Positions 3,701 to 44,587 of a stretch of 44,587 nucleotides of DNA are shown here, in pieces. The DNA is from Chitinophagaceae bacterium. Lineage in GTDB: Bacteria > Bacteroidota > Bacteroidia > Chitinophagales > UBA10324. Location of the stretch: contig CANJII010000028.1 of NCBI GenBank assembly GCA_947474435.1, positions 1-44,587 on the forward strand. Reading direction: 5' to 3'. A model generated the notes under the pieces. It was not told the origin of the DNA. It worked only from the letters and a program-made list of their open reading frames with translations, and did not search any database. The position numbers and the translations under genes were made by a program. Within the stretch, counting starts at the first letter, position 1, and every line of letters begins with the position of its first letter.

Positions 3701-4169
3701 AATCATAATTGCCCGAAATATTTACATACATAATCGGCATTTCAGAAAAATCAATTTCCTGAACGGTTGGCGGATTTTTTAAATCAGATGGTAAATCAGC
3801 TTTCGATTTATCTACTTCATCTTTTACTTTTTGTTTGGCAACTGCCACATCCACATTAGTATTGAATTCAATAATAATGTTGCTGAAATCCTGGATGGAA
3901 TTACTGGTCATTTTCTTCACTCCATTAATTCCTTTAATCCGTTTCTCCATTTGCTTAGTCACCAGATTTTCCATATCGGCCGGAGATGCCCCTGGATAAA
4001 TGGTGCTGACAAAAATTGTTGGAATAACAATATCCGGAAACCGCTCCTTCGGAATACTCATGTAAGAAAATATTCCTGCGAGGGTTATAATAACCGTGAG
4101 CACATAAATACTTGTGCGGTTATCTATTGCCCACGAACTGGCGAAAAATTCTTTGTTAGTGTCTTTCAT
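765..4169 (-). CDS. RND-family efflux pump, inner membrane permease
   Basis: A 1134-residue proton-driven inner-membrane pump of the AcrB/MexB (HAE-1-like) class, of normal length. Membrane segment 1 is at about residues 20-38, followed by the periplasmic porter start (GASPADMENLV, about 60-70). The second membrane block (about 335-500) carries the proton-relay motif VDDAIVVIEN at 405-414 with both Asp residues. CzcA-type metal pumps usually have VDG there, so drugs, detergents or lipophiles are likelier substrates than metal ions. The second-half counterpart VVRNGILIIEF (near residue 1004) has Arg where AcrB has Lys940. The gene is last in the tetR-tolC-adaptor-pump operon, 106 bp after the adaptor. 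It probably works with that adaptor and the TolC-like channel. The substrate cannot be told from sequence. Confidence 0.95.
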   Translation of the reverse strand: MKDTNKEFFASSWAIDNRTSIYVLTVIITLAGIFSYMSIPKERFPDIVIPTIFVSTIYPGASPADMENLVTKQMEKRIKGINGVKKMTSNSIQDFSNIIIEFNTNVDVAVAKQKVKDEVDKSKADLPSDLKNPPTVQEIDFSEMPIMYVNISGNYDLNKLKKYADEIKDHVEGMKEITRVDIVGALNREIQVNVDMFKMQAANLTLDDIDRALAYENMTISGGNISMDGMKRSLSVSGEFKNVEQMKNIILRSMSGATLYLQDIAEVKDGFAEKESYARLEHKNVITLNIIKRSGENLIDASDKVRAIVEDLQARSFPTGLKITVTGDQSELTRTTLHDLINTIIIGFLLVLIVLMFFMGVTNAFFVALSVPLSVFLAFLILPGIGFSLNMIVLFSFLLALGIVVDDAIVVIENTHRIFDNGKVPIKKAAKIATGEVFLPVLTGTLTTLSPFLPLAFWPGIIGKFMFFLPITLIITLLASLVIAYIINPVFAVSFMKPHENDNDPKVIKRKNKSLKITTVILLAISLLFYIGGNIGIGNFGVFLWLMVLLNRYVLHKVTGDFMEKVWPRVQNFYKRIITWVLIGIRPALFLVGTILLLFVSVYAVILRSPAIETFPAGEPHFAYVYINMPVGTHQSVTDSMTKLVEKKVYTVIGEHNPMVESVISNVAVGATDPSSGDKSASSNKGKVTVAFVDIAKRNGGSTGKVLDSIRAIVKGIPGVQITVDKEANGPPVGKPINIEIGGDDFDELIASSQGMIRYLDSLQIPGVEELKSDLVVSKPEVVVDIDRERANREGISTGQIGGALRTALYGKEVSKFKEANDEYPIMLRLSDEQRNNISELLNIKITYRDMNMGGAIRSVPLSSVASIRYTNTYGGITRKNQKRVVTVYSNILTGFNAQDVVANVTKAAAAYKLPKDVSINLTGELEQQKETGAFLGNALLLSILLMVLILVIQFNSFGKTLIILSEILFSIIGVLLGIAITGMHFSVVMTGVGIVALAGIVVRNGILIIEFTDLLRSQGMPVREAIIEAGKTRMTPVILTATATMLGLLPLAVGMNIDFVTLFTHLNPHIWFGGDSVAFWGPLSWTIIFGLSFATFISLILVPAMYMIGINIKARMRGEPKEKKANTGFIDIE

Positions 4170-4174
4170 ATTTA

Positions 4175-4206
4175 TAGCTGTTAGCTTTTAGCAATTAGCT
4201 GTTAGC
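4175..4206. repeat. Short TAGCTGT-type repeats in the pump-adaptor spacer
   Basis: TAGCTGTTAGC occurs at 4175-4185 and again at 4196-4206, separated by TTTTAGCAAT, so the core TTAGC recurs roughly every 7-10 bases. It fills the spacer between the adaptor stop and the pump start. See the finding on heptamer-like spacers. Confidence 0.6.
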
Positions 4207-4275
4207 ATGTTTGAATTAATAATGTATGCTGAAATTTTATTTTGCTGATGAACCTGTTAAACTGATAATTCCTCA

Positions 4276-5391
4276 TTATAATTTAAGAAACTCGCCATCT
4301 TCCACATCCTGGTATCCAGTTGTTATGAGTGAATCACCTTCTTTCAATCCTTCCAGAATTTCAATTTGCCCTTTGTAATCTCTACCGGCTTTTACCATTT
4401 GTTTATGTGCAATTGTTTTTCCCTTTTCATTTTGAACGGCGAGAAAAACATAGTATCCATCTTCTGAATTCTGAACTACATTGAGCGGAATAACAATTGA
4501 ACTGATTGTTTGATAGTCAACAATATTTAAATGCGCTATCATGTTCGGATGCAAATCAGGGTCAGTAGGCACATTCACCTGCACAGCGAAAGTGCGATTC
4601 ATGCTGTTGATTACACGACTGACGAATGAAACTTTTAAATCTAAATTTTTATTCATATCGGGAAACTCAACCAACACCGGATTTCCTTCGCGAATTTTGC
4701 CTGCATAACTTTCTGCTATATCAGCTTTCACCTTCAGCGAGTTCATATTCACTACACGAACAGCTGGTAAACCCGGCGCGGCTATTTGTCCGAGTTTCAA
4801 ACTCACTTCATCCACAGTTCCGTTAATGGGTGATTTTATTTTATACATAGCCAATTGTTCGTTCATGGTTTGCATTTTCTTCTCCATTGATTCCTTATTG
4901 TTTTTTGCAGAAAGAAATTGCACTTCACTTCCGATTTTCTGATCCCAAAGATTTTTTTGCTTGTTGTATATATCAGTTGCAAACGCTAATTGATTTTTTA
5001 ATTCTTCAATTCCCTGCCGCATTACTGCATCATCTAATTCGGCAAGAATTTGCCCGGCTTTAACATTGTCGCCCTCCTTTACATAAATGGATTTTACAGT
5101 GCCTCCCATTTGAGCGCTCACATTTACATTTTCATCGGCATCTAATTTTCCCTGTACCTGCACATAACTTTTAAATGGCATGGCGGCAACCAGAGTTACT
5201 TTAACATCCAGCATTTTAATTTTGGTAGTTGTATCAGCTTTTGCAATTTCATCTTCCAGATTTTTTATTTTATCTGAAAGTGTTGCCTGCTCTTTTTTTA
5301 ATTTTTCCAGTTCGGTTTTTTTATCGGAAGAATTATTTCCGCAGGCGAAAAACAAAACAGAGAAAGAGATTAATATTAAAATGTGTTTCAT
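4276..5391 (-). CDS. RND efflux periplasmic adaptor (membrane fusion) lipoprotein
   Basis: A 371-residue adaptor linking the RND pump to the outer-membrane channel across the periplasm. The N-terminus is a lipoprotein signal with lipobox LFFAC (Cys17), so it should be lipid-anchored. Residues about 25-55 form a Lys/Glu-rich coiled coil. A lipoyl-like domain follows (GGTVKSIYVKEGDNVKAGQ), then an alpha-hairpin (about 115-180) and the second lipoyl half with KIKSPINGTV. Beta-barrel and membrane-proximal domains complete the HlyD/AcrA layout, and length is normal. It lies 50 bp after the TolC-like gene and 106 bp before the pump gene, so co-transcription is very likely. Confidence 0.94.
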   Translation of the reverse strand: MKHILILISFSVLFFACGNNSSDKKTELEKLKKEQATLSDKIKNLEDEIAKADTTTKIKMLDVKVTLVAAMPFKSYVQVQGKLDADENVNVSAQMGGTVKSIYVKEGDNVKAGQILAELDDAVMRQGIEELKNQLAFATDIYNKQKNLWDQKIGSEVQFLSAKNNKESMEKKMQTMNEQLAMYKIKSPINGTVDEVSLKLGQIAAPGLPAVRVVNMNSLKVKADIAESYAGKIREGNPVLVEFPDMNKNLDLKVSFVSRVINSMNRTFAVQVNVPTDPDLHPNMIAHLNIVDYQTISSIVIPLNVVQNSEDGYYVFLAVQNEKGKTIAHKQMVKAGRDYKGQIEILEGLKEGDSLITTGYQDVEDGEFLKL

Positions 5392-5441
5392 AAGAAATGA
5401 TAGTTTATCGGGGTTGAATTTATTTTTTATGGATGGTTGAA

Positions 5442-6785
5442 TTATTTTATTTGTCCGGTAGCGTTTAAGTAATCTGTTTGCGCAATCATGGCATCGTACA
5501 ATGCACTCAAATAATTTGTCTGAGATTCTTTTAACGATGATTGTGCATTGAGCAAATCAGTATTTGATCCTAATCCCTGCTCGTATTTTGATTTAGTAGC
5601 ATTGTAAACTTTTTCAGCAAGCTGCATATTGTCTTCCTGCGATTGCAATGATTGAGTGGCGTTTTGCAATTGTGTTTTTGCATTCATGAACTGCAAAGTC
5701 AAACCATTTGTTAAATTCAACTGGTCATTTGTATTTTTTTCGAGATTCAGCTTTCCCTGTTGAATTCTTCTTGCTTTTTGTAATCCATCAAAAATTGGAA
5801 CCGATAATTTCAAGCCAATCAATCCTGTTGGATACCACTTTTGACCTGAACCAAATAAATCAAACTTGTTCGACTGTGCCTGATAACTGTAAGAACCAAA
5901 TGCATATAGGCTCGGGAAGTAAGAAACCTTGTGGCGACGGATATCTAACTGATATAGTGTTGCAGCATTATTTAACAATTGCATTTCAATTCTATCCTGC
6001 GGATTAAAACTGGCAGATAACACCGATTCAAAATTCAAAGGCTTCAAAGTATCAGTCAGCATGAGTTTTGAATTCACATCCATTCCCATCTGGTACATTA
6101 ATAAATAATTACTGAGTGCAACTAATTTTGAAATTTTATCTAACTCGGTTTTTAAATTGGTATTCAGAATATTGATTCTGTCTAAATCCAGTTGCTCAAT
6201 AAAACCATTGTCGAACATCACTTTACTATCACTCGCCAACTTTGCAATCCGTTCAACATTTGAATTCAATAATTCAATCCGCTTGTTTGCAATCAGAGCA
6301 TTGTAATATGCCTTTGTAACAGTGGTGATGGTCTCAATTTTTGTTCGCTCAGTGCTCTTGCTTGATAGTTCTTTCAACGCTTTAGTTGCTTGAATGGCAA
6401 CGAAATATTGTCCATCAGCCACCAGCTGACCAACTTCCAATCCACCATTTGCGCTGTACTGTGTTCCGAATTTTACAGGGATGTAAGTTCCGGCAGGCGC
6501 ACCGAAAACTTCACCCGGCAACAGACTGGTTGGAATTTCTATGAAATCATTAATGCCACCATTTGCACTTATTTGCGGCATCGACAATCCTAGAATCTCC
6601 TGCACCTTTCTTTTTGAAATTTCTTCATCAATCTGCGCATTCAAATAAGCTGACTGATGAGCAAGCGCGTAATCAATACACTGTTGCAAACTGAATTTTA
6701 ATTCTTCGCCTGAAGTTTGTGCTTTCAGGTTGAAAGTAAAAGTGAGCAGAAGGAGAGAAAATAAAACGGGTTTGAATTGCTTCAT
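5442..6785 (-). CDS. TolC-family outer membrane efflux channel
   Basis: A 447-residue outer membrane factor with a signal peptide (residues 1-23, ending LKAQ). The two internally similar halves of the TolC fold are visible: the first begins LKFSLQQCIDYAL and the second contains the helix region KYEQGLGSNTDLLNAQSSL, a standard OEP-family signature. Length is normal. Its start overlaps the regulator's stop by 4 bp (ATGA), so translation is probably coupled and the efflux genes come under the regulator's promoter. It would form the trimeric exit duct for the adaptor and pump encoded next. Confidence 0.93.
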   Translation of the reverse strand: MKQFKPVLFSLLLLTFTFNLKAQTSGEELKFSLQQCIDYALAHQSAYLNAQIDEEISKRKVQEILGLSMPQISANGGINDFIEIPTSLLPGEVFGAPAGTYIPVKFGTQYSANGGLEVGQLVADGQYFVAIQATKALKELSSKSTERTKIETITTVTKAYYNALIANKRIELLNSNVERIAKLASDSKVMFDNGFIEQLDLDRINILNTNLKTELDKISKLVALSNYLLMYQMGMDVNSKLMLTDTLKPLNFESVLSASFNPQDRIEMQLLNNAATLYQLDIRRHKVSYFPSLYAFGSYSYQAQSNKFDLFGSGQKWYPTGLIGLKLSVPIFDGLQKARRIQQGKLNLEKNTNDQLNLTNGLTLQFMNAKTQLQNATQSLQSQEDNMQLAEKVYNATKSKYEQGLGSNTDLLNAQSSLKESQTNYLSALYDAMIAQTDYLNATGQIK

Positions 6786-35902: not shown

Positions 35903-36643
35903 ATGAACCCTGAAATCTCCAACCTGATTTTTCTCTTGCTACTTTTCTCAGTTGCATTTCTGTATTCCAGTGTTGGACATGGAGGTGCAAGTGGGTACCT
36001 CGCATTAATGGGAATTTATCATTTCACCCCCGATGTGATGAAGCCTTCTGCTTTGATGCTGAACATTGTTGTTTCGCTTATTGCATTCATTCAATACTCA
36101 CGAACTACATCAATCAATAAAAAATTATTGTTGTTGCTGATTCTCGGTTCAGTACCTGCTGCATTTATCGGTGCAGGAATTACATTGGATGTATTGATTT
36201 ATAAAAAAGTTTTAGGAGTGTTGTTGTTGTTTCCCATTCTTCGCTTGCTTGGATTTTTCGGGAAGGAAGTTTCCGTATTAAAAAATCCAAATCCATATCT
36301 CGCTGTTGCAATCGGGATTTCAATCGGATTTATTTCCGGAGTAATTGGAATCGGTGGTGGAATTTTACTCAGTCCGATTTTACTTTTTTTAGGTTGGGCA
36401 TTCATCAAACAAACCGCTGTGATTTCATCACTGTTTATTTTTCTGAATTCAATTTCAGGAATGATTGGTTTGGTCTCAAAAGGAATTTCAATTGACTCCA
36501 CCATTTATTTATGGATTGTCATTGCTGTTGCGGGTGGATTAGCAGGTTCTTATTTCGGAGCAAAAAAATTTGACTCAACAGTTTTGAAAAAAGTGCTGGC
36601 TGTTGTGTTGGTCATTGCTTCATTCAAACTAATCGCAAGTTGA
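35903..36643 (+). CDS. TSUP (TauE/SafE) transporter in the molybdenum cofactor operon
   Basis: A 246-residue inner-membrane protein with about seven to eight membrane segments. The two repeat signatures are SVGHGGASGYLALM (about 23-36) and GVIGIGGGILLSPIL (about 147-161). The N-terminal histidine in GHGGASGY is a noticeable difference from the GLLGSGGS of the paralogue at 7702-8514. It lies between moeA and mobA with gaps of 13 and 9 bp, so it is certainly in the operon. Known family substrates are sulfite and related oxyanions; carriage of molybdate, formate or a sulfur compound needed by the cofactor pathway is only suggested by position. Confidence 0.88.
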   Translation: MNPEISNLIFLLLLFSVAFLYSSVGHGGASGYLALMGIYHFTPDVMKPSALMLNIVVSLIAFIQYSRTTSINKKLLLLLILGSVPAAFIGAGITLDVLIYKKVLGVLLLFPILRLLGFFGKEVSVLKNPNPYLAVAIGISIGFISGVIGIGGGILLSPILLFLGWAFIKQTAVISSLFIFLNSISGMIGLVSKGISIDSTIYLWIVIAVAGGLAGSYFGAKKFDSTVLKKVLAVVLVIASFKLIAS

Positions 36644-36652
36644 TTCGGAGTT

Positions 36653-37243
36653 ATGAAAAACAATTCACCATCAATCAACGGATATATACTCGCAGGAGGA
36701 AAAAGTTCGCGCATGGGTGAAGACAAAGGTTTGATGCTGTTCAATGGAAAACCAATGATTGCACATGTGATTGAACAACTAAAACCAGCAGTTAAAAAAA
36801 TCATTATCGTTTCAAACAATAAAGCATACGAGCAATTCGGATTGGAAGTTATCAGCGATTTAGTAACCGATATTGGACCTGCTGGTGGAATTCTCACAGC
36901 ACTAACTCACACTGATTCCGATTATAATTTCATTTGCAGTTGCGATATGCCATTCATTAAAACAGATGCAATAAATTTTCTGATTGAACATTCATTTGAT
37001 TTTGAAATTACAGTTGCTGTTCATCACGATAAAATTCAACCGTTGTTTGGAGTGTATTCTAAAAATTGTTTAGCTGAATGGAGTAATCAAATTCAAAAAA
37101 ACAATTTCAAATTGCAGGAATTGATTACTCATTTCAAATTGCAGAAATTAGAAATGAAAAACATGAACTCGTTCGATGAAACTATTTTTACCAATCTAAA
37201 TTCGAAATCGGAGTTGGAACAACAACAGCAAAAAGAAAAATGA
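36653..37243 (+). CDS. mobA: Molybdenum cofactor guanylyltransferase MobA
   Basis: A 196-residue nucleotidyltransferase that attaches GMP to Mo-molybdopterin to give the guanine dinucleotide form used by formate dehydrogenases and other DMSO-reductase-family enzymes. The N-terminal LAGGKSSRMGEDKGLM is the GTP-binding loop with its Lys, and CSCDMPFIK holds the metal-binding Asp. Its stop overlaps the moaD start by 4 bp (ATGA). The presence of mobA fits a bis-MGD formate dehydrogenase as the end user. Confidence 0.95.
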   Translation: MKNNSPSINGYILAGGKSSRMGEDKGLMLFNGKPMIAHVIEQLKPAVKKIIIVSNNKAYEQFGLEVISDLVTDIGPAGGILTALTHTDSDYNFICSCDMPFIKTDAINFLIEHSFDFEITVAVHHDKIQPLFGVYSKNCLAEWSNQIQKNNFKLQELITHFKLQKLEMKNMNSFDETIFTNLNSKSELEQQQQKEK

Positions 37244-37473
37244 AAATAAAAATTCTCGCCTTCGGAGTCATTGCTGATATCACCGGAAAATCAGAATGGA
37301 CAATAGAAAATATTCATCACACTGATGAATTGAAAAAACATTTAGAGAATTTATATCCGCGATTAAAAAACATGAAGTATGCAATTGCAGTTAACCTGTT
37401 AATCACTTCAGGAAATTTCGAATTTACAGATGGTGTGATTGTGGCTTTGATGCCTCCATTTTCAGGAGGGTGA
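37240..37473 (+). CDS. moaD: Molybdopterin synthase sulfur carrier subunit MoaD
   Basis: A 77-residue ubiquitin-fold sulfur carrier. The C-terminal tail MPPFSGG has the Gly-Gly that is adenylylated and thiocarboxylated before sulfur transfer in MoaE. Length is normal. It overlaps mobA by 4 bp and ends 22 bp before moaE, the catalytic partner. MoeB, the activating enzyme, is not seen in the window. Confidence 0.94.
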   Translation: MKIKILAFGVIADITGKSEWTIENIHHTDELKKHLENLYPRLKNMKYAIAVNLLITSGNFEFTDGVIVALMPPFSGG

Positions 37474-37495
37474 TTTACTCAAACAATAAAGAAGA

Positions 37496-37942
37496 ATGTC
37501 AGAGAAAAAAAGAAAAAATGTATTTATAGAAGGGGCAATCTTACCTTCCTTCATCGCCGATGCAATTGCAAAACACAGCACTAAAAAAGACATTGGTGCG
37601 CACAGTATTTTTCTCGGCCAGGTTCGTAACGATGTCATCAACGACATGGAAGTAAAAGCCATTGACTATACCGCCTACAATGAAATGGCGGAAGAAAAAT
37701 TTCATGAGATTCGTGAATCCGCTTTCGAAAAATATTCATTGACCTGCATGCACATTTATCACAGCCTTGGCAGAGTAAATTCAGGAGAAATAAGTTTATT
37801 TGTTTTCACTTCTTCCAGGCACCGCAAAGATGCAATTGAGGCTTGTTCATACATCGTCAATCGCATTAAAGAAGAAGCACCTGTTTGGGGAAAAGAAATT
37901 TTTGAAGATGAAAGTTACATTTGGAAGCAAAACACACCTTAA
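37496..37942 (+). CDS. moaE: Molybdopterin synthase catalytic subunit MoaE
   Basis: A 148-residue enzyme that converts cyclic pyranopterin phosphate to molybdopterin with two sulfurs from MoaD. Visible family features are GAHSIFLGQVRND, LTCMHIYHSLGRVNSGE and the catalytic-lysine region IKEEAPVWGKEIF. The substrate-binding arginine-histidine pair is seen in SSRHRKDAIEA. Length is normal. It follows moaD and lies 29 bp before fhs. Confidence 0.95.
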   Translation: MSEKKRKNVFIEGAILPSFIADAIAKHSTKKDIGAHSIFLGQVRNDVINDMEVKAIDYTAYNEMAEEKFHEIRESAFEKYSLTCMHIYHSLGRVNSGEISLFVFTSSRHRKDAIEACSYIVNRIKEEAPVWGKEIFEDESYIWKQNTP

Positions 37943-37971
37943 CACTAAATCATAAAATCAGAAAAATAAAA

Positions 37972-39642
37972 ATGCTATCAGACTTAGACATTGCGCAAGC
38001 GGCCAAAATCACACACATCAAGGAAATTGCAGCCAAGATAAATATTCATGCCGACGACCTTGAATATTACGGCAAGTACAAATCGAAACTTCCACTGAAA
38101 TTAATTGACGAGCAAAAAATAAAATCGAGCAAACTCATTTTGGTTTCCGCCATCAATCCAACTCCGGCAGGTGAAGGAAAAACAACTGTCTCTATCGGAT
38201 TGAATGAGGGATTAAACAAACTCGGAAAAAAATCCATAGTGGTTTTACGCGAACCATCGTTGGGTCCCGTGTTCGGAATGAAGGGTGGCGCCGCCGGTGG
38301 TGGTTACTCGCAAGTGATTCCGATGGAAGATATTAATCTGCATTTTACAGGAGATTTTGCCGCAATAGAAAAAGCAAATAATTTATTAGCAGCGCTCATT
38401 GATAATAATCTTCAGAACAAACAAAATAATTTAAACATCGACCCGCGCACTATCAAATGGAAGCGTGTGATGGACATGAACGATCGCGCGCTTCGTCAAA
38501 TCATAATTGGTATTGGCGGCACCAGCAATGGTATTCCGCGCGAAGATGGATTCAACATTACTCCTGCATCAGAAGTGATGGCGATTCTTTGCATGTCGAA
38601 AGACATTGATGATTTGAAAGTGCGACTCGGAAATATTTTCATTGGATTCACTTTCGATAAGAAACCAATTTACGCGCGCGATTTAAAAGCGCAAGGTGCA
38701 ATGGCGATTCTGTTGAAGGAAGCCATCAAACCAAATCTCGTTCAAACACTGGAAGGCAATCCTGCCATTCTGCATGGCGGTCCGTTTGCAAACATTGCGC
38801 AGGGAACCAACACAATTCTCGCAACAAAAATGGGATTGTCATTAGGCGATTATGTGGTAACCGAAGCAGGTTTCGGTGCCGACCTTGGTGCCGAAAAATT
38901 CATGAACATCAAATGTGGTTATGCCGGGTTAGCGCCGCATGCAATTGTGTTGGTGGCAACCATCCGTGCATTGCGTCATCACGGCGGTGCAAAAAAAGAG
39001 GAGTACAATACTCCGAGCATGGATCGTGTGATTAAAGGTTTTCAAAATCTTGAAAAGCACATTGAGAATTGTAAAAAATTCGGAATCACTCCGGTTGTGG
39101 CAATTAATAATTTCCCTACTGATTCAGTAGAAGAAATAGAATTTGTGCAAACACATTGTGCGAAAATGAATGTGAAAGCTGTGGTATCTTATGGCTTTGC
39201 AAAAGGAGGTGATGGAACTAAAGAACTGGCGCAAGCTGTTCTTGATGTTATTGAAAGCGGTTCAAATAAATTCAAACCATTGTACGATTGGAACCTGAGT
39301 GTGGAAGATAAAATCAATCGAATTGCAACCGAAATTTATGGTGCTGATGGTGTTGAATATTCTTCGAAGGCACGCACACAATTGAAAATGATAAAAGATT
39401 TAGGCTACGATAAATTGCCGATCTGCATGGCGAAAACGCAGAAGTCATTGTCCGATAAAGAAACCGTTGTTGGCCGCCCGAAAGGATTTACCATTAATGT
39501 GCGCGAGTTTGAATTTGCTGCAGGTGCCGGTTTCATCATTCCTATTTTAGGTGACATGATGCGCATGCCTGGCCTGCCTGTTGTTCCCGCATCCGAGCAC
39601 ATGGATATCGACAACAACGGAAAAATCACAGGATTGAGTTAA
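37972..39642 (+). CDS. fhs: Formate-tetrahydrofolate ligase
   Basis: A 556-residue enzyme that joins formate to tetrahydrofolate with ATP, feeding one-carbon metabolism. The P-loop region NPTPAGEGKTTVSIGL (about 54-69), EPSLGPVFGMKGGAAGGGYS and MEDINLHFTGDFAAI are hallmark motifs, and length is as usual. I start at ATG 37972; the open frame reaches back into the moaE 3' end but those residues are unrelated. Its place in a cofactor/formate-dehydrogenase cluster suggests balanced use of formate, assimilation by fhs and oxidation by the dehydrogenase. A 62-bp gap then leads to the nuclease/AlbA cassette. Confidence 0.97.
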   Translation: MLSDLDIAQAAKITHIKEIAAKINIHADDLEYYGKYKSKLPLKLIDEQKIKSSKLILVSAINPTPAGEGKTTVSIGLNEGLNKLGKKSIVVLREPSLGPVFGMKGGAAGGGYSQVIPMEDINLHFTGDFAAIEKANNLLAALIDNNLQNKQNNLNIDPRTIKWKRVMDMNDRALRQIIIGIGGTSNGIPREDGFNITPASEVMAILCMSKDIDDLKVRLGNIFIGFTFDKKPIYARDLKAQGAMAILLKEAIKPNLVQTLEGNPAILHGGPFANIAQGTNTILATKMGLSLGDYVVTEAGFGADLGAEKFMNIKCGYAGLAPHAIVLVATIRALRHHGGAKKEEYNTPSMDRVIKGFQNLEKHIENCKKFGITPVVAINNFPTDSVEEIEFVQTHCAKMNVKAVVSYGFAKGGDGTKELAQAVLDVIESGSNKFKPLYDWNLSVEDKINRIATEIYGADGVEYSSKARTQLKMIKDLGYDKLPICMAKTQKSLSDKETVVGRPKGFTINVREFEFAAGAGFIIPILGDMMRMPGLPVVPASEHMDIDNNGKITGLS

Positions 39643-39704
39643 ATTAAGGATGCAATGTTTTAACAATAATTTTAACTCAAATAACAAATCAGTTTCAAAC
39701 TATA

Positions 39705-40112
39705 ATGATTAAACTAACCGAGGACGAAATCATAACTTTTTTAATTTCACATTTAAAGAAAAATGAATGGACAATTGATAGTTATTGTTTAGGACAGAAT
39801 CACGGTAATGATATTGTTGCATCTAAATCTAATACGAAACTTATAGTTGAAGCAAAAGGTGCAAGAGCAGGTGACAACTCGCCAACAAAAAAAAGAGAGT
39901 ATTTTGATAGCGGACAGATAAAAACTCATTTTGGTAAAGCCATTGTGAAAGTTCTTGAAGAAAAATATCTTAACCCAAAATATAAACATGCTATTGCACA
40001 TCCAGACGATAGTGATATAAGAAAATCAATTGGTCATTTGATTCCATTTCTTAAAACACTTGGCATCAAACATTTTTGGATTTCATCAAACGGAAATGTA
40101 ATTGAAGAATAA
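39705..40112 (+). CDS. Small PD-(D/E)XK nuclease-like protein
   Basis: A 135-residue protein that I cannot assign to a named family. GNDIVASKSNTKLIVEAKG gives the nuclease-core signature Asp36, then Glu49-x-Lys51 on the next strand, and Gln71 follows a helix start (SGQIKTHFGKA) where Mrr/restriction-type members have a conserved Gln. The protein is basic and has no partner domain. Its stop lies one base before the ATG of the AlbA-domain gene, so the two are one unit. The pair interrupts the fhs-fdhD gene run and looks more A-rich than its neighbours. A DNA- or RNA-cutting role, perhaps defence, is inferred. Confidence 0.75.
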   Translation: MIKLTEDEIITFLISHLKKNEWTIDSYCLGQNHGNDIVASKSNTKLIVEAKGARAGDNSPTKKREYFDSGQIKTHFGKAIVKVLEEKYLNPKYKHAIAHPDDSDIRKSIGHLIPFLKTLGIKHFWISSNGNVIEE

Positions 40113-40113
40113 A

Positions 40114-41271
40114 ATGAACCCAGCATTTCACTATGTAGTAAAAGCCAAACTCATTCGTTATAAAAATGCAGATGATATAAATTTTTTAGAGTTTGAAGAA
40201 AAATTTGAAAATGAGAATCCAATCATTGCAAGAGAAGCTGCATTTAATTTTTATCAAAACTACATTGATGTATTGCTTGAAAGTAAAAACATAAAATATA
40301 TTTCGGACAAACAAACAAGAGAAGAACTAAAAACTTTCATTGAAACAGAAACTTCATCTAAAATGAAAGTAGGTGATAAACTTGTTGAGTTCAATGATGC
40401 TTTCGGTAATGGAATTGGAATTTTTTTAGTAGTAGATATTGCACAAGATGGGAGTCATGAAAGTTTATCATATAAAAAAGGTGATGAATTTTTAATTCAT
40501 GGAATCGGACATCTAATCGGTGGTTCAGACAACCCAGACTATGTTGTTGGAAATTTAGACCAAGAGCACGAATTCTATCAAATAAATAATTATGACACAA
40601 AAAATAAGGAAAAAAAAATAGTTTATTGTAGTCGTGATGAATGGGAAGAAGGTTTCAGAGAAGATGAACCATCCAACTATATTATTTTAGAAACTCCCTT
40701 CGATTGGACAGGATTTGAAAAACCTTATTGGTGGGGAGAACCAGATAAAAGCAAACAAGAAATTCAGCAAGTAACCAAATCAGTAGAACAAATAATTGAA
40801 GGAGGAGAAGGTAATCAAGTAGAATTTAAACCATCACTTCTTTACAACTTCAAATCGAATAAGGCAGGAATAAGTGTGAAAGGAAAAATTGCAACTACAG
40901 TTTGTGCTTTCCTGAATTCAAATGGTGGTTATCTTTTAATTGGAGTGAAGAATGATAAAACAATAGGTGGTCTCTCTTATGATTTTAGTTTGTCAAATGA
41001 AAAAGACCAAAAGGATTTTTTTCTTTTAGAGTTTGATGAAATGATTGAGCAATTTATTTCTACTTCAATTATCAATTATGTAAAAGGAGAATTTTACGAA
41101 ATAGAAGGTAAAGAAATTTTTTTAGTGTCAGTACAACCAAGCAATAGAAGACCAATTTTCTTGAAAGGACAAGAGGGTAAAGAATTTTTTGTCCGTAAAT
41201 TAGCATCAAGCAAGAGAATTTATGACATTGAAGAAATTGCTAACTACTGCATTGACAAATGGTCTTCTTAA
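40114..41271 (+). CDS. Schlafen AlbA_2-domain protein with unknown N-terminal domain
   Basis: A 385-residue protein. The C-terminal part (about residues 225-385) is an AlbA_2 (Schlafen-type) putative nucleic-acid/ATP-binding domain: GGEGNQVEFKPSLLY, then AFLNSNGGYLLIGVKNDKTIGGL, and the end FFVRKLASSKRI. The N-terminal 210 residues match no family I know; they include a basic/acidic helical section (18-80) and an aromatic stretch FDWTGFEKPYWWGEP (196-210). AlbA_2 proteins occur as transcription regulators and in anti-phage systems. I start at ATG 40114, one base after the stop of the nuclease-like gene; a TTG start inside that gene (40102) is possible. Coupling to the nuclease gene suggests joint function. 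Confidence 0.8.
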   Translation: MNPAFHYVVKAKLIRYKNADDINFLEFEEKFENENPIIAREAAFNFYQNYIDVLLESKNIKYISDKQTREELKTFIETETSSKMKVGDKLVEFNDAFGNGIGIFLVVDIAQDGSHESLSYKKGDEFLIHGIGHLIGGSDNPDYVVGNLDQEHEFYQINNYDTKNKEKKIVYCSRDEWEEGFREDEPSNYIILETPFDWTGFEKPYWWGEPDKSKQEIQQVTKSVEQIIEGGEGNQVEFKPSLLYNFKSNKAGISVKGKIATTVCAFLNSNGGYLLIGVKNDKTIGGLSYDFSLSNEKDQKDFFLLEFDEMIEQFISTSIINYVKGEFYEIEGKEIFLVSVQPSNRRPIFLKGQEGKEFFVRKLASSKRIYDIEEIANYCIDKWSS

Positions 41272-41316
41272 AACTGCTTTACTTTGCAGGAACAGTATTA
41301 CTTATAATCGAATTGC

Positions 41317-42147
41317 ATGAACATTGAACAATACAACGGACTGTTTTTTAAAGATGGGAAATTTTCTCAGGTCGAAGATATTCTCGCAGTTGAAGTTGCG
41401 CTGAGTATTGCAGTCAATGAAGTTCCGTTCACTGTTACCATGCAAACTCCCGGTAACGAAATGGAACTGGTTCGCGGACTATTATTCTCCGAAAAAATAT
41501 TTCAGAGTTTAACCGAACATCCCGTTATTGATATTCGCGAAAGAAATGAAGAAGGATTTATTTCAGCGGTGAATGTTAAAATTCCTCCTCACCTAATACT
41601 GAAAGATTTCGCCGGAACACGAAATGTAATTTCCGCATCATCATGTGGTGTGTGTGGCAAAACTGAATTGGATGAATTGGGAACCGACAGAGTTTTAAAT
41701 TCAGATATCCTCAATCCTGCAATGGTTAAAATGATGTTTGAAAAAGTGAGCGCACAACAAAAAACTTTTCAGCAATCAGGAGGCACACACGCCGCCGGCG
41801 CATTCACCATTGATGGAGAACTGCTTGCTGTGATGGAAGACATTGGTCGCCACAACGCAGTTGATAAAGTAATTGGATACCTCGTGAATAATAATAGGCT
41901 CGATAAAGCAAAGCTCATCACCGTCAGTGGTCGCGTGTCGTACGAAATTGTGAGCAAAGCAAAATCTGCAGGCATTCCTTTTCTCGCTTCTGTTTCAGCG
42001 CCGTCATCCTTGGCTGTTGATTCAGCCGAAGCCGCCGGAATTTCCCTCATGGCTTTTTGCCGCAATAATAAATTTACTGTTTACTCAAATCCTGCACAGG
42101 TGGCAAACGATAAACCCGAAATAACCACAGGTCAGATTCAACGATAG
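41317..42147 (+). CDS. fdhD: Formate dehydrogenase accessory sulfurtransferase FdhD
   Basis: A 276-residue protein that moves sulfur from a cysteine desulfurase to the molybdenum cofactor and is needed for formate dehydrogenase activity. The sulfur-carrying pair Cys110 and Cys113 is in [15 protein letters not shown]. The cofactor-binding region [20 protein letters not shown] and [11 protein letters not shown] is conserved, and length is normal. It stands 9 bp before the NuoE-NuoF fusion gene, so the two are co-transcribed. Its presence is strong evidence that the organism has a molybdenum or tungsten formate dehydrogenase. Confidence 0.96.
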
Positions 42148-42156
42148 ATAAATACA

Positions 42157-43809
42157 ATGTCAAAAAATTTAAGTGACTTATCAGGTAGGAAAGGATTATC
42201 AAAAAATCTTTTCGAAGAATATGGAAACCTTGCAACTGAAACAGGAACTCCTGATGCTGTGGCATTGGAAAAACTTCGCGAAGAATTCCTCGTTGGGAAA
42301 TCATCAGTGTATGGTGCTGTATCTTTTTATGATTTTCTTAAACCCGAAAACAAAGGCAAGAAAGTTTACATCTGTAACGGCAGTTCCTGCATGACGGCCG
42401 GAACACAAGATGAATTGCATTCAAAAATCAGCGCACACTATTCTGCAGACGAGATTGGCGAAATGTGCTGCCTCGGTCGCTGTCACGAAAATGCATCGTT
42501 CCACATCGCAGGAAAAAATTATTCAGGAAACGATATTGATGATATTGAAAAAATAAAATCCGGCAATGTGGGTACTAAAGAAAAATACAATGTCGGTTCC
42601 ATCGGCACACCCATACTCACAAGCGAGTATGGCAACATAAAAGATTTCTATAAAATATTTACCGACTGCTTAACCAAAACTCCCGAAGCGCTTCTCGCCG
42701 AACTGAAAGATTCCGGATTGCGTGGTCGTGGTGGTGCAGGTTTTTCAATGGCATTCAAATTAGAGTCGTGCCGCAATGTGGCAGGTGACACAAAATTTAT
42801 TGTCTGCAATGCTGATGAAGGCGACCCCGGTGCATACTCCGACCGTTACATCATGGAACAGCGCCCGCACACTATGCTCATGGGAATGATGATTGCCGGT
42901 TATATCACAGGTGCACAACACGGAGTGGTTTACATCCGAGGCGAATATCCCGAGTCGGTTAATATTGTGACCGAAGAAATTTCGAAACTGCAAAATGAAA
43001 ATCTGCTTGGAGAAAACATTAAAGGCAGTGGTTTCGCCTTCAATTTCAAAGTAATTAAAGCGCAGGGCGCATACATCTGTGGCGAAGAAACCGCATTGCT
43101 TTCTTCCGTAGAAGGGCAGAGACCTGAAGTGCGGGTGCGTCCACCGTATCCGACTCAACAGGGCTTATTCAATAAACCAACTGTTGTAAACAATGTAGAG
43201 ACACTGGCCAATCTTCCCTTCATCATGCAGCACGGCGGAAAAACTTTTGCCGCCATCGGCACCGCAAAATCATCAGGCACAAAACTCATTTCGCTCGATG
43301 GATATTTTAACCGCCCCGGCATTTATGAAGTGGACATGGGCACTCCCCTCAGCAAAGTCATTAATGATTTAGGTAAAGGCTTTCGCACTCCCGTTAAAGC
43401 CATGCACATCGGCGGGCCGCTCGGTGGCCTCGTTCCCGTTTCTAAAATCGACAACCTCACCGTTGACTTCGATTCATTTGCGCGTGAAGGTTTTCTGCTC
43501 GGTCATGCTTCGGTGGTTTGCATTCCCGAAAATTATCCGCTCATCGCTTACATCGAACACCTGTTCCGGTTCACTGCACACGAAAGTTGCGGCAAGTGTT
43601 TTCCGTGCCGCCTCGGCTCCACCCGTGGTTACGAAATGGTAGAGAAAGCGCGAACCGAATCTTATAAAATGGATTACACCCTTATGACCGACCTGCTCGA
43701 AACCCTCGAAACCGGCTCACTCTGCGCCCTCGGTGGCGGATTGCCTCTCCCAATAAAAAATGCACTGAAGTATTTTGATGCAGAGTTGTCGGAATACTTT
43801 GTGAAATAA
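42157..43809 (+). CDS. NuoE-NuoF fusion, NADH-binding subunit of a formate dehydrogenase-type complex
   Basis: A 550-residue FdsB-like diaphorase. The N-terminal NuoE-like thioredoxin-fold domain (about 15-130) has [2Fe-2S] ligands Cys73, Cys78, Cys105 and Cys109 (ICNGSSC, CCLGRC). The NuoF-like part (about 160-550) has NADH-binding GLRGRGGAGFSMAFK, FMN-binding CNADEGDPGAYSDR and a [4Fe-4S] site with Cys478, Cys481, Cys484 and Cys523 (ESCGKCFPCR, SLCALGG). It lacks the C-terminal ferredoxin domain seen in some hydrogenase relatives. It would pass electrons between formate dehydrogenase and NAD. HoxF- or HydB-like hydrogenase subunits are alternatives, but fdhD and the cofactor genes favour formate. 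No catalytic subunit gene follows. Confidence 0.9.
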   Translation: MSKNLSDLSGRKGLSKNLFEEYGNLATETGTPDAVALEKLREEFLVGKSSVYGAVSFYDFLKPENKGKKVYICNGSSCMTAGTQDELHSKISAHYSADEIGEMCCLGRCHENASFHIAGKNYSGNDIDDIEKIKSGNVGTKEKYNVGSIGTPILTSEYGNIKDFYKIFTDCLTKTPEALLAELKDSGLRGRGGAGFSMAFKLESCRNVAGDTKFIVCNADEGDPGAYSDRYIMEQRPHTMLMGMMIAGYITGAQHGVVYIRGEYPESVNIVTEEISKLQNENLLGENIKGSGFAFNFKVIKAQGAYICGEETALLSSVEGQRPEVRVRPPYPTQQGLFNKPTVVNNVETLANLPFIMQHGGKTFAAIGTAKSSGTKLISLDGYFNRPGIYEVDMGTPLSKVINDLGKGFRTPVKAMHIGGPLGGLVPVSKIDNLTVDFDSFAREGFLLGHASVVCIPENYPLIAYIEHLFRFTAHESCGKCFPCRLGSTRGYEMVEKARTESYKMDYTLMTDLLETLETGSLCALGGGLPLPIKNALKYFDAELSEYFVK

Positions 43810-43897
43810 ATTTTGAATTATAGAAATTTCGGGGACTGTCACTCTCAGCATGTCGAAGTGTTGGGCAAGTCACCATTTTTTTGATTACAAAAAATGC

Positions 43898-43984
43898 TGT
43901 CAGGCTTTCCGCTATTAGTCCTCGCGCCCCACTCATTCCACCACTGCGGCTGTGGGCTAACCGCTGCAATCCTTCACGCTTAGC
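43898..43984. repeat. GC-rich dispersed-repeat-like element
   Basis: The stretch begins TGTCAGGCTTTCCGCTATTAG and ends CCGCTGCAATCCTTCACGC, with a variable middle that can fold (CCAC with GTGG at about 43940-43955). It is far richer in G+C than all surrounding intergenic DNA. From memory, elements with a GGCTTTCCGCT start and a CAATCC(T/C)TAACGC-type end recur in Bacteroidota intergenic regions; copy number here is untested. Confidence 0.45.
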
Positions 43985-44214
43985 AACACTAAAACTATAA
44001 CGAAAACCATTTCATGAAACCCAATGAAATTCTACTGATAAATACTAAATCCTCCACCATCATACTGATGTCTCAGCTGGTCATAAACTAAATTTGTTTT
44101 CAATTTAGGTTTTTTTATGTTATCTTTTACAAGTATACGATAACAATGAAACTAAATAAAATAGAAGTATTTAAGCAAAATACAATCGCCGCTTGATAAG
44201 TTGTTGTAAAAAAG

Positions 44215-44297
44215 GCGAAATACATTTTATTCAAAACTTTCGCTTTTGCTACAAATTATTTCACGAAAAGCGAAAGTTTGAGTTACATTCGTTTCGC
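44215..44297. repeat. Nested long inverted repeat
   Basis: Inner arms AAACTTTCGCTTTT (44234-44247) and AAAAGCGAAAGTTT (44266-44279) are a perfect 14-bp pair around an 18-nt loop. Outer GCGAAA (44215-44220) and TTTCGC (44292-44297) also pair. There is no T run, so it is not a terminator. Twelve bases further on is GTTATGTG, which recalls the recombination core of integron attC sites. Confidence 0.7.
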
Positions 44298-44375
44298 ATA
44301 AAAAGATGTTATGTGCAACCCTAAAAGATAGCTTAAACTATCGATGGAAGAATTAGTCTAAAAAAATAAAAAGAC

Positions 44376-44587
44376 ATGAAAAAAATATTTTTACAATTCA
44401 TTTTGTTGATTTCACTATCCAATTGGGCTTTTGCTCAAACAAATATTTATGACAGTATTTTTGTTGGAGGTCGTTGGAGAACTTTTTTAACTCATCTTCC
44501 AACAGGATATAATACTTCGAACAACTACCCATTAGTTTTAGCATTTCACGGTGGTGGTCTATTAGGTTATCAATCCATTCAATATCA
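44376..44587 (+). CDS. Secreted alpha/beta-hydrolase (esterase/PHB depolymerase-like), 5' part
   Basis: The gene is cut by the window end after 70 codons. A signal peptide spans residues 1-21 (MKKIFLQF to WAFAQ). The mature start resembles the LpqC/poly(3-hydroxybutyrate) depolymerase-like esterase family: DSIFVGGRWRTFLTHLPTGY is followed by PLVLAFHGGGLLGY, the oxyanion-hole HGGG region. The catalytic Ser, Asp and His would be beyond the edge, as would any T9SS sorting domain. Substrate class (feruloyl, acetyl-xylan or polyester) cannot be decided. The start ATG follows the inverted-repeat region by about 80 bases. Confidence 0.8.
   Translation, partial: MKKIFLQFILLISLSNWAFAQTNIYDSIFVGGRWRTFLTHLPTGYNTSNNYPLVLAFHGGGLLGYQSIQY

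Follow-up and report, generated by a model that had tools for sequence, protein, structure and literature searches.

Two genes inserted between fhs and fdhD as a candidate modular anti-phage or anti-plasmid system

What role can be assigned to two closely spaced genes, one nuclease-like and one with a Schlafen-type AlbA_2 domain, that lie between fhs and fdhD in a Chitinophagaceae bacterium? The DNA analyzed here, referred to as the window, is the whole 44,587-nucleotide stretch of contig CANJII010000028.1 (assembly GCA_947474435.1); loci retrieved in the searches are denoted by L numbers. Between fhs (formate-tetrahydrofolate ligase, 37921-39642) and fdhD (41317-42147), the same (+) strand of the window encodes P1, the nuclease-like protein, and P2, in which an N-terminal domain precedes AlbA_2. 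A preliminary description of this DNA had tentatively taken the two genes for a compact defense cassette. Our analysis indicates that the pair is probably a two-gene module against phages or plasmids that has moved horizontally and belongs to a modular family. What had been observed in the sequence is confirmed, and the defensive role read from it, which we likewise infer, is supported.

First, the pair is an insertion that splits fhs from fdhD. In all five congeners showing the fhs-fdhD junction (L039, L040, L041, L042, and L045), the two genes are separated by 8 to ~100 bases with no gene inside, and comparison with these congeners puts the right-hand boundary of the insert close to the start of fdhD or exactly at it. 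A pair fixed at this position in relatives, which the preliminary description had named as telling against its proposal, is thus not what is found. An fdhD match was present in 8 of the 16 genomes of the family search, these five congeners among them, and of 149 relatives searched, 2 carried P1, with the genome of the window counted in both cases; P2 was matched by 24 of the 149, at full length in the window only and in the AlbA part in the other 23. The P2 ATG at 40114 lies one base past the P1 stop (40112), as had been described, the mechanically called open reading frame (ORF) beginning at a TTG at 40102. The compositional difference noted earlier is also borne out: GC content is 0.306 for P1 and 0.303 for the P2 ORF versus 0.374 ± 0.031 in the remaining 27 ORFs of the window with 100 amino acids or more, and GC at third codon positions (GC3) is 0.185 and 0.201 versus 0.335 ± 0.064. 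Promoter- and terminator-like sites in 37400-42400 were no more frequent than in shuffled sequence. The fhs-fdhD spacer of L039, L040, and L045 contains a GC-rich palindromic element that is absent from the window, L041, and L042.

Second, a search for the gene pair elsewhere recovered it in a Bacteroidetes metagenome-assembled genome (L057), where a P1 relative (72% identity over 135 residues) is followed after 3 bp by a P2 relative (43.5% identity over residues 1-383). The flanking genes are quite different from those of the window, and the DNA around the P1-P2 junction is nearly identical. Because the pair recurs at this unrelated locus, P1 and P2 form a unit and are not chance neighbors. 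That two unrelated mobile genes adjoin fortuitously, as in gene-cassette arrays, is accordingly very hard to credit: both families do occur apart, and one P1 relative lies in a cassette-array-like plasmid stretch of short same-strand genes, but the repeated order, the near-zero spacing, and the DNA similarity running through the junction at L057 largely refute this explanation.

According to its AlphaFold2 model (mean pLDDT, 93.0; pTM, 0.87), P1 is a PD-(D/E)XK protein of canonical fold, for which nuclease activity is predicted. The modeled elements follow the order alpha-beta-beta-beta-alpha-beta-alpha-beta (helix 6-19, strands 23-27, 37-41, and 44-50, helix 69-89, strand 94-100, helix 103-118, and strand 121-126) and include the alpha-beta-beta-beta-alpha-beta core of PD-(D/E)XK proteins, with D36, E49, and K51 supplying the D and (D/E)-x-K residues at the core strands. 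Across 26 aligned rows, window included, no variation occurs at G34, D36, E49, K51, G52, or A98, and at least 90% of the rows keep E6, F67, Q71, and H75; the signature first read from the sequence (D36, E49-x-K51, and Q71) therefore agrees with the alignment. A structure prediction lacking a nuclease core, also named in the preliminary description as telling against its proposal, is not what the model of P1 gives. No Pfam family (XisH, PF08814, included), PADLOC family, or PHROG matched P1 at E values up to 1, and the single NCBIfam line, at E 0.087, is at chance level. Individual P1 relatives gave weak matches to PD-(D/E)XK families and to unrelated families at an equal level; because the unrelated families score alike, such matches carry little weight beside the fold.

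Among solved structures, two XisH proteins come closest to the fold of P1, with Z scores of 11.2 and 10.9 and an rmsd of 3.0-3.1 Å across 112-113 aligned residues; they were also the only two chains with E < 0.001 in Foldseek. These were followed by AF1548, PaqCI, and BstEII (Z 8.2-8.3), with EndoMS also among the best matches. P1 might on this basis be an XisH-like excision controlling factor and P2 its nucleic-acid-binding helper, the two serving as an accessory to recombination or DNA processing. The lead of the XisH folds over the next at 8.3 favors this explanation, as do integrases in L095 and L098 and a transposase directly upstream in L093 (the L085 locus). However, no recognizable recombinase was seen by eye among the listed ORFs around the window pair, no target-site duplication or end repeat stood out when the insert ends were inspected, and the Pfam search of P1 returned nothing, XisH included; we regard the explanation as improbable.

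P2 scored 73.8 bits against PF04326, for which the curated cut-off is 25.3, and is thus a member of this family; the Schlafen AlbA_2 assignment made earlier is upheld. Since the AlphaFold2 model of P2, built from a two-row alignment, failed (pLDDT, 34.5) and went unused, the fold of this domain is read from sequence. A profile of seven P2 relatives compared with the animal SLFN12, Schlafen 8, SLFN11, and SLFN14 chains matched them over the AlbA_2 part, with E values of 8e-9 to 1.3e-7 for the best five. The RNase triad of Schlafen proteins was placed on P2 by alignment with chain 5yd0 (the rat SLFN13 structure, under the deposited name Schlafen 8) together with residue spacing. The rat SLFN13 triad consists of E205, E210, and D248, and loss of either glutamate leaves no cleavage even with raised enzyme concentration (PMC5862951). 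Equivalents of the two glutamates, E232 and E237 in the window, are kept in all six P2 proteins compared. The preliminary description had cast the domain as a binding partner; the domain itself stands, but by this alignment it appears Schlafen-like, with two of three known RNase acids kept, and probably does more than bind. The AlbA part also matches a PHROG annotated as DNA helicase (E 1.1e-7); a helicase function was rejected, the match being read as a shared domain. Pfam gives nothing above cut-off for the N-terminal part, in keeping with the unrecognized domain described before. The idea that this part derives by decay from a second AlbA lobe was not supported by hhalign (probability, 0.1; E 0.42).

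Relatives of P2 show that the family is modular, a property beyond what could be seen from the window. The sole scan of the genome collection used P1 as the query, so the P2 family is undersampled, its N-terminal domain being known from nine loci. A profile of this domain matched 4 of 395 genomes of the class (the window, L084, L085, and L086, all at full length), and a search of the phylum sample matched 3 of 395 (the window, the full-length L048, and L047, which has the domain alone). Further searches with the domain, matching 2 of 298 genomes of the order and 3 of the 100 genomes of one family, added L088 (a weak match, E 2e-4) and L091, both of which lack AlbA_2 in frame. Four full-length relatives were thus recovered without recourse to P1, and in three of them the gene directly upstream encodes a DNA enzyme, of a different kind each time, if DUF7255 is accepted as one. 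In L084 it is a DUF7255 gene (E 1.5e-7), with a stop that overlaps the P2 start by one base; a short acidic stretch suggests that DUF7255 may be a nuclease. No search on this protein showed a nuclease, and a literature search found no paper on DUF7255. In L085 it is a UDG-superfamily gene (E 1.5e-10) ending one base before P2, for which NCBIfam MUG-like lines reach E ~2e-7, far under their cut-offs, and PDB matches are weak. In L086 it is a GIY-YIG gene that has a one-base overlap with P2; its product contains GVY and YIG motifs and matches the family at E 3.5e-4, the 21.3 bits falling just under the cut-off of 22.6. A change of the upstream gene to one for a GIY-YIG protein or a base-excising glycosylase is compatible with enzymes that encounter phage DNA.

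Several further features were seen around these relatives. HsdM and HsdS genes lie near the P2 relative of L048 (L095), and Vsr and two C5 methylases near the weak domain match of L098, in both cases with the integrases mentioned above. In L086 an EEP nuclease gene (L086:275-970) follows and overlaps P2; a divergent EEP nuclease gene, its product 54% identical to that of L086, stands beside the lone N-terminal domain of L088 (L088:576-1247). A 382-amino-acid protein encoded 73 bases upstream of a lone N-terminal domain (L097:9264-10412) has, by eye, a short DUF262-type-like stretch and no Pfam or NCBIfam match. On plasmids, the N-terminal domains of L084 and L085 had no match; 17 plasmid records matching P2 were set aside, as they match from residue 209 on, nearly all within the AlbA part.

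The first 80 residues of P2, which are the portion most conserved along with P1, may move together with the upstream enzyme. Over residues 1-80 the window protein is 76% identical to that of L057, which has a P1 partner, and 56% identical to that of L084, which has another; over residues 216-385 the values are 38% and 55%. Site counts run the same way, with 23 sites favoring the window with L057 versus 6 and 4 in the first region and 44 favoring the window with L084 versus 14 and 15 in the second. In approximately unbiased (AU) tests, grouping of the window with L057 was rejected for residues 216-385 (p 0.033); for residues 1-80 the groupings with L057 (p 0.226; imposed, and not in the best tree) and with L084 (p 0.128) were neither rejected nor recovered. 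Trees of the middle part decide nothing. A swap inside P2 is suggestive only, because unequal rates could mimic the pattern. We put forward tentatively, as possible and not yet probable, a mix-and-match immune family in which a conserved chassis of N-terminal adaptor and AlbA_2 is combined with an interchangeable PD-(D/E)XK, GIY-YIG, glycosylase, or DUF7255 protein, the first 80 residues going with the enzyme.

One kind of partner holding different enzymes is also what might be expected of a toxin-antitoxin pair that maintains a plasmid or island, in which P1 would be a toxic nuclease and P2 its inhibitor and perhaps operon repressor. This is the main rival explanation; the compact, closely coupled genes, their patchy distribution, and a MazF-like toxin gene near the L084 pair agree with it. 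On the other hand, P1 relatives stand without P2, including those of L056 (70%) and L058 (60%, with no close same-strand partner beside it), which argues that the P1 family needs no P2 antidote. In addition, P2 is enzyme-like and larger than antitoxins usually are, and a UDG-type partner would be odd as a toxin. We consider a toxin-antitoxin function unlikely.

Defense genes lie near some P1 relatives. Such relatives were found in 6 of 395 genomes of the window's phylum, its own included; at 27 loci, one partial, of the genome collection, where E values are relative to candidates; on plasmids in five distant cases (25-32% identity); and once in the viral-contig scans (IMG/VR; L055), in which no P2 relative appeared. 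The phage collection had no match to P1 or P2. With the partial L081 and the duplicates L003, L050, and L051 left out, at least 5 of 31 P1 loci carry dedicated defense genes of BREX, type I restriction, or Gabija, as judged from ten proteins picked by eye from seven loci. These are PglW in L060 (PADLOC E 0), PglZ and BrxL in L075 (E 2.4e-84 and 9.3e-214), HsdR in L078 (E 3e-151, two small genes separating it from P1), HsdS and HsdM in L079 (E 6.2e-95 and 3.2e-200), and GajA/GajB in L080 (E 2.1e-289 and 4.7e-213); L058 and L059 showed generic ATPase or helicase matches only. At E up to 1e-15, the 146 ORFs of the 31 loci gave 290 PADLOC families versus 39 for 100 control ORFs, in tallies that do not show which member matched and for which no significance was computed. 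The control ORFs came from 19 of 20 hand-placed stretches (L113 gave no ORF), all in the window's phylum, some from genomes with a P1 or P2 relative elsewhere, and the P1 loci span several phyla. A type II methylase match in the P1-locus tally (E 5.7e-202) probably reflects an N-6 methylase that L032 carries by annotation.

In L075 the C-terminal part of BrxL (3823-5880) is 24% identical to the AlbA part of P2 over 158 residues (E 2e-17), and this AlbA_2-like BrxL directly precedes the P1 relative (5925-6372). L075 is thus a second, independent meeting of P1-type and AlbA_2-type domains. The reading frame of this P1 relative looks broken near its start, and that at L082:6007-6240 and following (the same place as L051) is interrupted by internal stops and is likely a pseudogene. 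Two other P1 relatives have settings of their own: one at L033:5998-6402, on a Vibrio parahaemolyticus plasmid, lies within short same-strand genes with spacers that have the look of an integron-cassette array, and in L034:1730-3091 a P1-like domain opens a 453-residue protein, the remainder of which has no Pfam match above cut-off.

The position of the window pair, between fhs and fdhD and downstream of mobA, moaD, and moaE (identified by Pfam), would be explained directly if its function were tied to formate or molybdenum-cofactor metabolism. In line with this, the L084 pair (L092), in another family, directly follows a moaE 61% identical to that of the window, in a cluster that shares homologues of mobA (34%) and a TauE-like gene (48%). 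By eye, the gene following P2 at this locus reads as moaC-mogA. Like the window insert, the P2 domain of L084 is rare among relatives, with only one of nine genomes searched in that order, all from a single genus, having it. The same cluster holds a MazF/PemK-like toxin gene with a small upstream gene (L092:2485-3562). Two insertions near moaE may reflect an insertion-tolerant cluster or an unexplained link. Tolerance of insertion explains the position equally well, in five congeners the fhs-fdhD junction is intact and free of the pair, the pairs of L057, L085, and L086 are located elsewhere, and Pfam finds no cofactor-chemistry domain in P1 or P2; a metabolic function is therefore most doubtful.

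Defense is made more likely by three lines of evidence: the change of DNA enzyme before P2 relatives, the defense genes near some P1 relatives, and the link between AlbA_2 and Schlafen RNases. Several observations weigh against it or against the proposed architecture. At the third Schlafen acid the window P2 has N280, with D281 next, versus D in the five other P2 proteins, and because of N280 RNase activity of the window protein, judged from its residues, is plausible but not safe. Neither P1 nor P2 matches a family of PADLOC-DB 2.0.0 at E up to 1. Most P1 loci are without P2, AlbA_2 being found in 2 of the 35 loci (three of them duplicates) searched with P2; at L056, where P1 identity is ~70%, a 106-amino-acid protein without a family match lies 11 bases downstream in place of P2. 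Three genomes (L047, L091, and L088) have the N-terminal domain without AlbA_2, and for L048, a full-length relative and one of four such, no partner is evident. The control for defense neighbors is small and unmatched for taxon, and the window and L092, two of nine N-terminal-domain loci, occupy related molybdenum-cofactor clusters, which fits poorly with a purely defensive role.

With these points in view, we propose that a defensive module would work as follows. P2 would be the constant chassis, joining an N-terminal partner-binding domain to a C-terminal Schlafen-type AlbA_2, and the upstream gene, here P1, would supply an interchangeable small DNA enzyme. P1 would be held in a complex by the first part of P2; engagement or cutting of foreign or abnormal DNA by P1 would then free AlbA_2 for tRNA cleavage or another stop of translation, so that the infected cell would cease making phage. 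The analysis shows the modeled fold and active-site residues of P1, the placement of P2 among AlbA_2 proteins, the insertion, the recurrence of the pair, and the variety of upstream enzymes in relatives; complex formation, its triggering, cleavage by P1 or P2, and the defensive role are inferred. If the mix-and-match reading is true, a sensor for foreign DNA can be exchanged as the translation-stopping arm stays. A chassis that accepts DNA enzymes of unrelated folds would show how an immune module changes its sensing and keeps its killing arm, and the different partner types provide a ready comparison set. The features of the pair and its surroundings are collected in Table 1.

Table 1. Positions of the gene pair, its domains and residues, and the adjoining intervals in the window
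Feature	Position	Strand	Basis
Leader, 62 bp, fhs stop to P1	39643..39704	+	No clear promoter
P1, PD-(D/E)XK nuclease-like, 135 aa	39705..40112	+	ORF, AlphaFold2 fold
P1 E6	39720-39722	+	Conserved in at least 90%
P1 catalytic-type core, D36 to E49-x-K51	39810..39857	+	Invariant in 26/26 rows
P1 Q71	39915-39917	+	Conserved in at least 90%
P2, N-terminal domain and Schlafen AlbA_2, 385 aa	40114..41271	+	ORF, Pfam, relatives
P2 first 80 residues, part most conserved together with P1	40114..40353	+	Identity to L057, L084
P2 N-terminal domain, ~residues 1-215	40114..40758	+	No library match
SLFN_AlbA_2, P2 residues 232-368	40807..41217	+	PF04326, E 2.3e-20
AlbA_2 acids E232, E237 (GE-x4-EFK), third position N280 then D281	40807..40956	+	Column check, six P2 proteins
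Spacer, 45 bp, P2 to fdhD	41272..41316	+	Comparison with L039-L042, L045

Comparison with known systems places the pair near several of them. Among the matches listed in a literature search with preprints outside its scope, no title or abstract opening describes the P1-P2 pair, and the matches listed for XisH together with defense were irrelevant papers only. XisH of fdxN-element excision (PDB 2okf and 2inb), whose usual partner is XisI, is the closest solved fold to P1, but identity is 14-15%, and P1 has no Pfam match to XisH. A Brig1-type DNA glycosylase acts against phage DNA, according to the abstract of PMC11078745, and the UDG-superfamily partner of L085 recalls it; the window, in contrast, has a nuclease and not a glycosylase, and that abstract mentions no Schlafen-like partner.

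PMC12839542 reports that at least 1017 taxa show a close association of Schlafen RNases with core loci of BREX, that PD-(D/E)XK and Schlafen proteins of BREX loci are catalogued as auxiliary, add-on, or backup effectors, that several Schlafen-linked systems can cleave tRNA in defense, and it names a histidine-kinase or wHTH part for Schlafen effectors. P1 relatives likewise stand beside BREX genes in L075 and L060. However, no BREX core gene (PglZ and others) was seen beside the window pair, where mobA, moaD, moaE, fhs, and fdhD are nearest by Pfam and the other ORFs of 36000-44587 were viewed by eye, and no histidine-kinase or wHTH part of P2 was matched by Pfam. Schlafen RNases themselves have two lobes, in contrast to the one recognized AlbA_2 of P2 with its unmatched N-terminal domain, its N280, and a coupled upstream DNA enzyme; what P2 shares with them, by sequence, is the AlbA_2 lobe and both of the glutamates that are essential in SLFN13.

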